DNA of 32,452 nucleotides, taken from Devosia equisanguinis (GTDB lineage Bacteria > Pseudomonadota > Alphaproteobacteria > Rhizobiales > Hyphomicrobiaceae). Every line of letters begins with the position of its first letter. Position 1 is the first letter of the stretch. Positions 22,799-25,910 of this stretch are shown here, one piece after another. The DNA is taken from positions 1 through 32,452 of the forward strand of contig CAMAYR010000033.1 of NCBI GenBank assembly GCA_945862355.1. Direction: 5' to 3'. The position numbers and the translations under genes were made by a program. The notes beneath the pieces were generated by a model. That model did not search any database. It was given only the letters and a program-made list of their open reading frames with translations, and was not told where the DNA came from.

Positions 22799-24886
22799 TC
22801 AGCAAATTCGATCTGCGAGCCCAGCCAGGGCGTTGTCGCCAGGATGCTCGGCGACGAGGCCTGCCAGGGAGGTCCTGGCGGCGTGAGGCGCCGTGGCGGC
22901 CGTGCTTATCGCTTTCAGGTAGGTGGCACGATGAGCGGGCGGCATCGTGTCGGGCCAGATGTCATATACCTCCATCGCCTCGCTGCGCCCGCGGACCTCC
23001 AGCTTGCCGAGCGGTCGCAGCATCGAGGCATCGACGAGGAGTGCGGCTGTGCCCGGGCCGATGCAAATCGCGCTGCCGAGGTCTTTGTTGGCTGCCTCGA
23101 GCCGGGCGGCGGTGTTCATCGCGTTGCCATAGGCGGTGTAGTCGAGGCGGGTGCCCCCGCCCACGTCGCCGACGATGACGGGGCCGGTTTCGATCCCGAC
23201 GCGCGTGCGGCCGAAACCCAGTGCGCGGGGCTCGGGCTCGGCGGCGAATCGCTCGGAGAACTCTCGAATGGCGCGCGCGCAGGCGACCGCCTTGTCGGCA
23301 TGTCGGGGGAGGTCGAGGGGCGCGTTGAACAGTCCGTGGAAACCGTCGCCGACGATCTTCTCGACCATGCCGCCGTGGGCGACGATGATCGCGCTCATCT
23401 CGTCGAGGTAGCGATCCAGGACGCGGATCAGCAGCGTCGGGTCCGAACGCTCGGTCATGGCAGTGAAGCCTTCGACGTCGGTGAACAGGATCGACGCCAC
23501 GCGCGTCTCACCGGCGAGCTTGAGGAGGCTCGGGTCCTGGGCGATCCGGGTGACGAGCTCGGGCGCAAGGTGCTGCTCGAAGCGCCGGCGCAGCGCCGCC
23601 TCCGTCCGCCGAGCGTGGATGGCGACGATCAGCGCGGCAAGGCCATAGCTCGCTACGAGGGCCAGCGGAATCGCGATCGGATCGACGAGCCATTGCCTGG
23701 CGCCGAGCGCCATGATGCTGAGACCGATCCAGCCGAGCGTGAGCCCGATGGTCACCACGGCGGCGCGCAGTGGCGGCAGCCACAAGGCGGCGATCAGGCC
23801 GGCGAGCACACCCAGCACCTGCGCGCTGGTCTCCAGGAGGTCGCCCCCGATCAATCGCAGGGGATGGACGCGCTCCAGGAGTTGGGCCGCGGCGCTGGCC
23901 TGGCTCTGGACGGTGGGTACGAGCGCGCCGCCGCTCACAAGTCGCAACCCGCCGAGCTCGGGTGCGGAGCTGCCTATCATGACGACCTTGCCGGCAAGGT
24001 TTGCGCGGACAGCCGCCGTCGTCACATCGACGGCCGAGATCGTGCGCTGCTCCATCGCGATCCTGGAGGGTGGCAGCAGGCGCAGGGTGGCGTCAGCCGA
24101 AATCGGCACCGCGAGGCTGCCGGCGCGGATCATATTCCCGCTTGCCAGAATGTAGGCCGACGCCTGATTTGCCGCCCTTACCGTCTCGAGGGCGAGGCCA
24201 GGGCGCAACTGGCTTCCTGCAGCCGTGAGCAGCGGAACGCGGCGCACGTGGCCGTCGGCATCGCCGGCCAGGGCCAGAACGCCGAGGCCGCCGGCCGCCT
24301 CGGCCAGCACAGGGGGGGGGCCGGCGGCGCCCGCGGCCTGCCAGATCCCCGAAAGGTCGATATTGCCACGCGCCAGGATCGGCGCCGCCGGAAGTGGGTC
24401 GCCTGGCCGGTCGGGGTCCAGCGCCAGGCCGAGCACGACCGGCTTGCGCGTTATCGCGGCGGCGAGCTGCTCGTCGCCGTCCTGCAGGCCTTCGGTCAGC
24501 GCCTTCGCCGCCGCGCTGCCGGTCAGCTCCGACAGCCGCCGCGCCAGGGCGGCGGGCGAGCGCTCGTCGGCGCCGTCGATCAGGATGTCGAGGCCTACGG
24601 CGGCCGGCTCCGCTGCCAGAACGTCGGACAGCAGCCTTGCAATCTGCTCCCGGCTCCACGGCCAGGGACCAAACCGCTCCAGGCTCTGCCGGTCGATGTC
24701 GACGACGCGGACAGGGGCCGTCAGCGACGGGTTTGCCACGTGGGAAAGAAGAACATCGAAGGCCCGCTCCCGCAGCGCGTCGTAGGCTGCGAGCGTGTGG
24801 GTTGCCACGATCATCGCAAGGCCCAGGAGCCCAGCAGCGGCCGTGGCCTGCAGGGCGCTGCCCGTCTTATCAAACCTGCTCGTCAA
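22799..24886 (-). CDS. CHASE2-domain class III adenylate cyclase, membrane bound
   Basis: A 695-residue sensor-cyclase. A first membrane helix (about 15-33) leads into a periplasmic CHASE2 sensing domain (about 40-330; VRVVDIDRQSLERFGPWPWSR and GKVVMIGSSAPELGGLR). Then come two or three helices (about 353-425) and a cytoplasmic cyclase domain (about 462-645). The catalytic set is intact: metal-binding Asp470 (FTDVEGFT) and Asp514 (VGDGFHGLF), the substrate pair Lys510 and Asp582 (LDYTAYG) that favours ATP over GTP, and Asn591/Arg595 for the transition state. It should make cAMP in response to an unknown signal. A run of nine C residues on the coding strand (24312-24320) encodes consecutive prolines in CHASE2. 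It diverges from the FecR-like gene across 388 bp holding two foldback elements. No clear ribosome site is visible. Confidence 0.92.
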   Translation of the reverse strand: MTSRFDKTGSALQATAAAGLLGLAMIVATHTLAAYDALRERAFDVLLSHVANPSLTAPVRVVDIDRQSLERFGPWPWSREQIARLLSDVLAAEPAAVGLDILIDGADERSPAALARRLSELTGSAAAKALTEGLQDGDEQLAAAITRKPVVLGLALDPDRPGDPLPAAPILARGNIDLSGIWQAAGAAGPPPVLAEAAGGLGVLALAGDADGHVRRVPLLTAAGSQLRPGLALETVRAANQASAYILASGNMIRAGSLAVPISADATLRLLPPSRIAMEQRTISAVDVTTAAVRANLAGKVVMIGSSAPELGGLRLVSGGALVPTVQSQASAAAQLLERVHPLRLIGGDLLETSAQVLGVLAGLIAALWLPPLRAAVVTIGLTLGWIGLSIMALGARQWLVDPIAIPLALVASYGLAALIVAIHARRTEAALRRRFEQHLAPELVTRIAQDPSLLKLAGETRVASILFTDVEGFTAMTERSDPTLLIRVLDRYLDEMSAIIVAHGGMVEKIVGDGFHGLFNAPLDLPRHADKAVACARAIREFSERFAAEPEPRALGFGRTRVGIETGPVIVGDVGGGTRLDYTAYGNAMNTAARLEAANKDLGSAICIGPGTAALLVDASMLRPLGKLEVRGRSEAMEVYDIWPDTMPPAHRATYLKAISTAATAPHAARTSLAGLVAEHPGDNALAGLADRIC

Positions 24887-24961: not shown

Positions 24962-25038
24962 CTAGTGTTCCTGATGTCTCAGACATTTGCTCGGAACCCA
25001 GACGCAGGGGGTAGCAAATGTCTGAGACGGAACACTAG
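24962..25038. repeat. Foldback element 1 (77 bp)
   Basis: Outer arms CTAGTGTTCC (24962-24971) and GGAACACTAG (25029-25038) pair perfectly. The inner arms GTCTCAGACATTTGCT (24976-24991) and its exact complement (25013-25028) add 16 bp. Four bases TGAT are bulged on the left side only, and the loop is 21 nt. The ends are the palindrome CTAG. It has no coding content and no T-run. Confidence 0.88.
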
Positions 25039-25051
25039 CAACTCTATGATT

Positions 25052-25129
25052 CTAGTGTTGCAATTGTCACTGACGCTTGGCAGCCCCCCTGCGACAATCG
25101 GAGACCAAGCGTCAGTGACGCAACACTAG
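25052..25129. repeat. Foldback element 2 (78 bp), same design, different stem
   Basis: Outer arms CTAGTGTTGC (25052-25061) and GCAACACTAG (25120-25129), a 4-base left bulge AATT, and inner arms GTCACTGACGCTTGG (25066-25080) with their exact complement (25105-25119) match the design of element 1, 13 bp away. The 24-nt loop contains CCCCCTGCG, complementary to CGCAGGGGG in the loop of element 1. Confidence 0.88.
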
Positions 25130-25274: not shown

Positions 25275-25910
25275 ATGCCGAGTGATCCCGGGAAGTCCAT
25301 ACGCGACCGCCGCGACATGCTGAAGGCTGGCGTCGGGCTCGCCGGCTCGATGCTCGTGATCCCGGCTCTGGCCCAGACGAGGCCCGAGCAGATCGGAACG
25401 ATCGAGGAAATGCGGGGGGAGGCATTCGCCGAGCTGGCGGGCCAGCGCCGGGCAATTGGCCCCAAGGCCGCGATCTTCGTGGGCGACATACTATCGACCG
25501 GCAGCACCGGGCGGCTCACGATGAAGCTGGGTGCGGCGACGACGATCAAGCTCGGCGGCCAGTCCCGACTCAAGATCGACCGCTATCTGGCCGAGGTGGG
25601 CGGTGAATTCGACATGCAAGCCGGCCACATGATGTTCGAGCGGCGCGGCAAGCCGGCCACCCAGGGCATCACATTTCGCAGCGCGTACGGTCTGATGGCA
25701 GTGCGAGGCACGCGGTTCTTCGCCGGCCCGAGCCGCGGCGTGTTCGGCGTGCTGGTAGGCGAGGGCAAGGTCGAGGTGACGGGCGGCGGGCGCTCCGTCC
25801 TAGTTCTCCCGCAGCAGGGCGTGGACATCAAGGCGCCGGGACAGCCACCGACGGCTCCAGCGCCGTGGGGCCTCCCACGCATCCGCGAAATGCAGCGCAA
25901 TTTCGCCTGA
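25275..25910 (+). CDS. FecR-domain periplasmic protein with Tat-type signal
   Basis: A 211-residue protein. The N-terminus has DRRDMLKAG followed by a hydrophobic run and ALA-QT, a twin-arginine signal (Arg12-Arg13) with likely cleavage after Ala33. Residues about 45-165 form a FecR-like beta domain (VGDILSTGSTGRLTMKLG, a GFxVRGTRF-type segment as MAVRGTRFFAG, then GVLVGEGKVEV). FecR domains sense or relay signals in the periplasm. Classic FecR proteins work with a FecI sigma factor and span the membrane; this one has no sigma-factor neighbour and no cytoplasmic anti-sigma part. AAGGAG lies about 9 bases before the ATG. Its divergent partner is a cyclase with a periplasmic CHASE2 domain, so a shared pathway is plausible but inferred. 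It converges with nuoF, 34 bp away. Confidence 0.88.
   Translation: MPSDPGKSIRDRRDMLKAGVGLAGSMLVIPALAQTRPEQIGTIEEMRGEAFAELAGQRRAIGPKAAIFVGDILSTGSTGRLTMKLGAATTIKLGGQSRLKIDRYLAEVGGEFDMQAGHMMFERRGKPATQGITFRSAYGLMAVRGTRFFAGPSRGVFGVLVGEGKVEVTGGGRSVLVLPQQGVDIKAPGQPPTAPAPWGLPRIREMQRNFA

Follow-up and report, generated by a model that had tools for sequence, protein, structure and literature searches.

A CTAG-bounded unit of two bulged hairpins in Devosia equisanguinis, a probable non-autonomous mobile DNA element

The window analysed here, a stretch of 32,452 nt from the draft genome of Devosia equisanguinis, contains a divergent intergenic region between a CHASE2-adenylate/guanylate cyclase gene (22,799–24,886, minus strand) and a FecR-domain gene (25,275–25,910, plus strand). 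In this region, outside both genes, lies a whole two-hairpin unit (24,962–25,129), which has no strand of its own and is bounded by CTAG, the putative target copies, on the left (24,962–24,965) and on the right (25,126–25,129), again with no strand assigned. On the plus strand the unit begins with hairpin 1 (type B, 24,962–25,038, 77 nt), in which the outer arms CTAGTGTTCC (24,962–24,971 paired with 25,029–25,038) are followed, on the left arm only, by the 4-nt bulge TGAT (24,972–24,975) and then by an inner stem of 16 perfect pairs (24,976–24,991 with 25,013–25,028) and a 21-nt loop, stem and loop together filling 24,976–25,028. The 13-nt spacer CAACTCTATGATT (25,039–25,051, plus strand) is among the three commonest spacers of the repeat family described below. 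Hairpin 2 (type C, 25,052–25,129, plus strand, 78 nt) has the outer arms CTAGTGTTGC (25,052–25,061 paired with 25,120–25,129), the 4-nt bulge AATT (25,062–25,065), also on the left arm only, and an inner stem of 15 perfect pairs (25,066–25,080 with 25,105–25,119) with a 24-nt loop, which occupy 25,066–25,119. The first-pass annotation had described two hairpins 13 nt apart with a common plan and a 4-nt bulge on one arm, and it was exact in both coordinates and sequence, the stems being perfect.

Folded as RNA, each hairpin on either strand reaches −43.7 to −48.5 kcal/mol with z-scores of −7.9 to −9.1, which none of 200 shuffles match, and the hairpin pair folded as single-stranded DNA has a z-score of −10.9. 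The window has 4 occurrences of the motif CTAGTGTT, against an expectation of 0.16, and all of them are within the two hairpins. A promoter-like site at 25,022–25,050 with the hexamer TATGAT and 9 of 12 matches overlaps the conserved spacer.

The expectation that dispersed copies of the same plan would exist in this genome and its relatives proved right. The pattern CTAGTGTT-N(55-85)-AACACTAG is found at 28 places in the source draft genome against 0 for the reversed-pattern control; 27 of them are single hairpins of 77–79 nt, and the remaining one, on contig C164, measures 86 nt and has an altered inner end. The same pattern occurs 8, 0 and 4 times in the three genus-mates G001, G002 and G003, respectively. 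A covariance model, R2, gave matches in all 4 genomes of the genus and, under a filter stricter than that of the genus search, in 52 of 103 genomes of the bacterial family (21 of 25 genera) and in 19 of 387 genomes of the class, the source genome included. In a scan of named genomes the repeat was placed, among the matches listed, in Hyphomicrobium, in Hyphomicrobiaceae assemblies and in a few other alphaproteobacteria, and many matches in distant phyla were rejected as chance matches to the short ends. No plasmid or phage copies were found by blastn. A literature search that covered few subscription journals returned, among the matches listed, no paper that we recognised as describing the element. 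Being short, multi-copy and non-coding, the family has these properties in common with miniature inverted-repeat transposable elements (MITEs). The heaviest load was met in genome G091, where 34 of 40 sampled stretches (L360–L399, a biased sample of short contigs) carry family ends, often identical and often at contig ends; this load suggests a recent spread.

To describe the unit itself, we used a set of 120 distinct hairpin pairs lying 8–22 nt apart, which is enriched for good matches and is not a random sample. The gap between the hairpins is 13 nt in 108 of the 120, and both bulges face the spacer in 112. The two hairpins of the window are therefore two different halves of one unit of about 168 bp, and the earlier reading of them as twin elements, that is as twin copies, is to be given up. 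The bulges (224 hairpins) are mostly T-rich and on the inner arm, with a length of 4 nt in 158 hairpins and 3 nt in 63, and the spacer is conserved, starting with CAA in most copies and ending in a TATGATT-like sequence. The CTAG at the feet of the hairpins is paired. Among the 8 exceptions to the inward-bulge rule is the window copy itself, whose hairpin 1 turns its bulge toward the flank while hairpin 2 keeps the usual orientation with the bulge toward the spacer. The bulge is lost in two others, L108 and L270; L174 consists of two hairpins brought close by another route; and L029, L156, L157 and L171 we read as adjacent hairpins that belong to separate units of a nested or tandem array, a reading that is directly visible in the sequences of L156 and L157 and is partly resolved for L029.

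In the window copy, hairpin 1 read on the opposite strand matches copies on contigs C72 and C149 of the same genome at 100% identity, while the direction of the spacer and of hairpin 2 is the usual one. Being the exact reverse complement of other copies, hairpin 1 has flipped in place, and the window copy, a unit with a flipped hairpin 1, is an instance of hairpin flipping in nature. As the outer 10-bp arms form a perfect inverted repeat, exchange between them, or template switching at the hairpin, would flip the hairpin; through such near-perfect inverted-repeat arms, recombination or template switching may occasionally flip a hairpin, flip a loop or delete a bulge. Events of a related kind are the bulge losses given above, the hybrid hairpins at L122 and L089, and two loops that by eye are inverted relative to the bulge, one on C153 of the source genome and one on C276 of G001. 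Frequent loop flipping is rejected, as 142 comparable pairs are alike and 0 inverted. Complementary 9-mers are present in the two loops of the window copy, and a loop-loop contact had been considered; however, pairing of at least 9 nt occurs in only 1 of 112 other units, a rate like that of re-paired controls (24 of 2240), and the mean is 5.2 nt in these units against 4.9 nt for re-paired loops, so that the 9 nt of the window are not a family feature and a kissing contact is rejected.

Conservation of the stems was examined in 34 copies, picked out of 56 to limit near-duplicates. In these copies, 96.8% of cells pair, and the double-changed cells number 91, compared with 25.6 in shuffles and 5–15 with slid partners. 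Double changes occur at 11 pairs against 8.0 in shuffles, and only 2 of 500 shuffles reach 11, whereas for further pair types the count is no higher than in shuffles (23 against 22.8). The earlier claim of compensated stem changes is thus borne out by the count of double-changed cells and not by the variety of pair types. Within a hairpin, the two arms of the inner stem are 94.9% alike, whereas the two outer ends of the unit, which have CTAGTGT in common, agree at 67.1% over the same 15 positions, those after the first ten. The hairpin fold is therefore kept better than the end symmetry, and folding seems to be what is kept. It could be argued that passive self-correction of palindromes holds the arms alike, but such a process would tend to erase the bulge, and yet the bulge persists in nearly all hairpins. 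G-T mismatches modestly outnumber A-C mismatches (46 against 27 overall; 25:16 for hairpin 1, 21:11 for hairpin 2), and the excess is in both hairpins on the strand that has the outer arm first, which means on opposite strands of the unit and speaks against one RNA.

Units are also found within units. On contigs C149 and C228, one unit, made of types A and D, is inserted whole in a second one, of types B and C, where the inner end of B has its CTAG. When 165 nt including one CTAG are taken out of the C149 locus, what is left is the uninterrupted unit of C72. The two sequences are identical across the junction, through the spacer and into hairpin 2; of 197 positions compared, 172 agree, and the tail of the comparison is unrelated flank. 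An empty site with a single CTAG is thus obtained for this nested insertion, and the duplicated target is either CTAG or just its inner TA, which cannot be distinguished here. In genome G032, two tandem units have one common CTAG. The orthologous cyclase-FecR region of G001 is also without the unit, at a locus too diverged for a base-by-base view of the CTAG junction. The view of the CTAG ends taken in the first-pass annotation, as insertion sites of MITE type, is borne out by the nested units. As for the genomic setting, assessed in 87 units by a crude ORF prediction, 8 units had no neighbour to judge by, and 78 of the 79 with classifiable neighbours are outside predicted ORFs; the neighbouring genes are codirectional in 41 cases, divergent in 23 and convergent in 14. 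The TAG within CTAG serves as the stop codon of the adjacent predicted gene at 18 of 156 boundaries, and an insertion by which CTAG is doubled would spare such a stop codon.

Taken together, these genome comparisons show a unit that is multi-copy and dispersed, present or absent at corresponding places, and that apparently moves as one and, once inserted at a CTAG, is flanked by CTAG left and right. We consider it to be a non-autonomous, MITE- or REPIN-like mobile DNA element of about 165–170 bp, built from two bulged hairpins that mirror each other, with a probability of roughly 0.87, and both the mobility of the family and the structure of its unit are, so far as genome sequences can tell, well supported. 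The plan is hairpin 1, 13 nt and hairpin 2, each hairpin with a bulge of 3–4 nt on the arm that faces the spacer and with none on its outer arm, and an enzyme supplied in trans may recognise the hairpins or the outer arms and duplicate CTAG or its inner TA. Against this explanation stand the outer ends, only 67% alike and thus poor for a classical inverted-repeat transposon, and the searches for Y1, DDE_3 and rve_3, in which no autonomous partner or enzyme was found. The family is REPIN-like in plan and MITE-like in target duplication, and its two-hairpin anatomy is unusually strict. MITEs of IS630 or IS5 origin, such as Correia and RUP, are short, non-coding and intergenic, with inverted ends and a short target duplication. 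The present family resembles them in these respects, its ends being inverted at least over CTAGTGT; in contrast to them, its two internal hairpins are kept better than its end match, and no parent IS was found at the Y1, DDE_3 and rve_3 loci or in 456 kb of G091. Elements of the IS200/IS605 type, which like the present family have hairpins close to both ends, differ in that their insertion duplicates no target and their ends are not inverted repeats. Compared by description alone, as far as given in the accessible parts of PMC2573895 and PMC10800456, the RIME and Bru-RS repeats of Rhizobiales are also dispersed palindromic intergenic repeats of related bacteria. The GTAG- and CGTC-tagged REPs are likewise palindromic repeats common in Proteobacteria, but they are 20–40 bp long, and CTAG is unmentioned in the accessible part of the source (PMC3733652).

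Several other explanations have to be weighed. A conserved RNA or transcription element, for example a double-hairpin terminator or a small RNA, spreading only with its genes would go with the strong folds, the compensated stem changes and the promoter-like site with TATGAT over the spacer. Yet no intrinsic terminator was found at the window hairpins, where no Rfam match is above its gathering score either (the best, weak match has an E-value of 0.017, far below the threshold of its family), the arrangement of neighbouring genes given above reveals no clear preference of orientation, no one strand has G-U over A-C in both hairpins, and nested and tandem insertions exist. The RNA role proposed by the first-pass annotation is accordingly not upheld, nor is a regulatory one, and an element of this kind is highly improbable. 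A narrower version of the mobile-element reading has about an even chance in our estimation: an ordinary MITE moved by an IS5-like or IS630-like DDE transposase that duplicates CTAG or TA, the hairpins being a by-product of end formation. It draws on the inverted CTAGTGT ends, on the CTAGTGTTYC-ended single palindromes that occur also in Clostridiaceae and Spirochaetia genomes, and on the CTAG duplication, which E. coli IS5 produces as well according to the accessible text of PMC11894529. What speaks against it is that pairing within the hairpins exceeds end-to-end similarity, that a bulge is kept on one arm, and that neither DDE_3 nor rve_3 has a match in the source draft genome. The 8 DDE_3 matches in G001–G003 have no family hairpin nearby, 25 rve_3 loci contain no parent (CTAGTGT is in 2 of them, once each and unpaired), and a parent with matching ends is missing around the DDE_3 loci and from the 456 kb of G091, in which a 1.6-kb pair of facing ends was rejected as decayed hairpins flanking an unrelated gene.

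REPINs and BIMEs (REP doublets) are close in appearance, and the two inverted palindromes as repeated unit that define a REPIN are present in this family. As far as described in the accessible parts of PMC3116915 and PMC8266576, they have in common with it short intergenic mirror palindromes, a short spacer, bulged hairpins, compensated changes and tandem arrays. Their movement depends in this scheme on a Y1 (HUH) transposase, RAYT, and for such a mover one could cite the mirror-oriented palindromes with their short spacer, the bulged stems, the tandem arrays and an IS200-type Y1 transposase gene in G091 (L387, 16–603, contig C62) whose start is about 117 bp away from a family hairpin located where the contig begins. 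Unlike in REPINs and BIMEs, however, the hairpins here are 70–80 nt long with the near-constant spacer, CTAG is doubled on insertion and is paired at both feet of each hairpin, with no unpaired GTAG or CGTC tag, and Y1_Tnp was matched in only 3 of 20 genomes picked for many copies (at least 11 family matches each). The Y1 proteins typed, from the source genome and G091, score above the cut-off as IS200/IS605 and below it as REP-associated; the G091 gene is accordingly rejected as the mover and its proximity taken as chance. The one Y1 gene of the source genome has a 3.4-kb locus without family hairpins, and there is none around any of the Y1 and DDE_3 loci L146–L155. Movement by RAYT is hence very unlikely. 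A more speculative idea, which we regard as rather doubtful, is that of an enzyme which recognises the two bulged hairpins in their folded state, with the bulge as the mark of the inner arm and the spacer of 13 nt setting the geometry, and which still duplicates CTAG; it would be neither a classical inverted-repeat transposase nor Y1/RAYT.

Small mobile repeats, whose enzyme is mostly not known, account for a large part of the changes between genes in bacterial genomes. The present element has an unusually strict plan of mirror hairpins, inward bulges, 13-nt spacer and CTAG. It is carried by roughly every second genome sampled in one bacterial family, and in some of these it occupies many sites. 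It offers a clean system to ask if a mobilising enzyme recognises the shape of the folded DNA and not the sequence of its ends.

Some minor observations may be added. On contigs C1 and C2 of G032, one orientation of the unit is apparently favoured, by roughly 21 to 8, and the GC skew there is too weak to place the replichores, so the bias cannot be related to replication. Single palindromes with CTAGTGTTYC ends were seen in Spirochaetia and Clostridiaceae genomes (L043, 4,226–4,323; L073, 1,542–1,639; L116, 263–339), and they are perhaps the ends of a widespread type of IS. The element seems to break the assembly of G091, many contigs of which terminate in identical hairpins. Two hybrid hairpins, at L122 (6,384) and L089 (4,900), have a left arm of one type and a right arm of another, as if the two hairpins of one unit had recombined.
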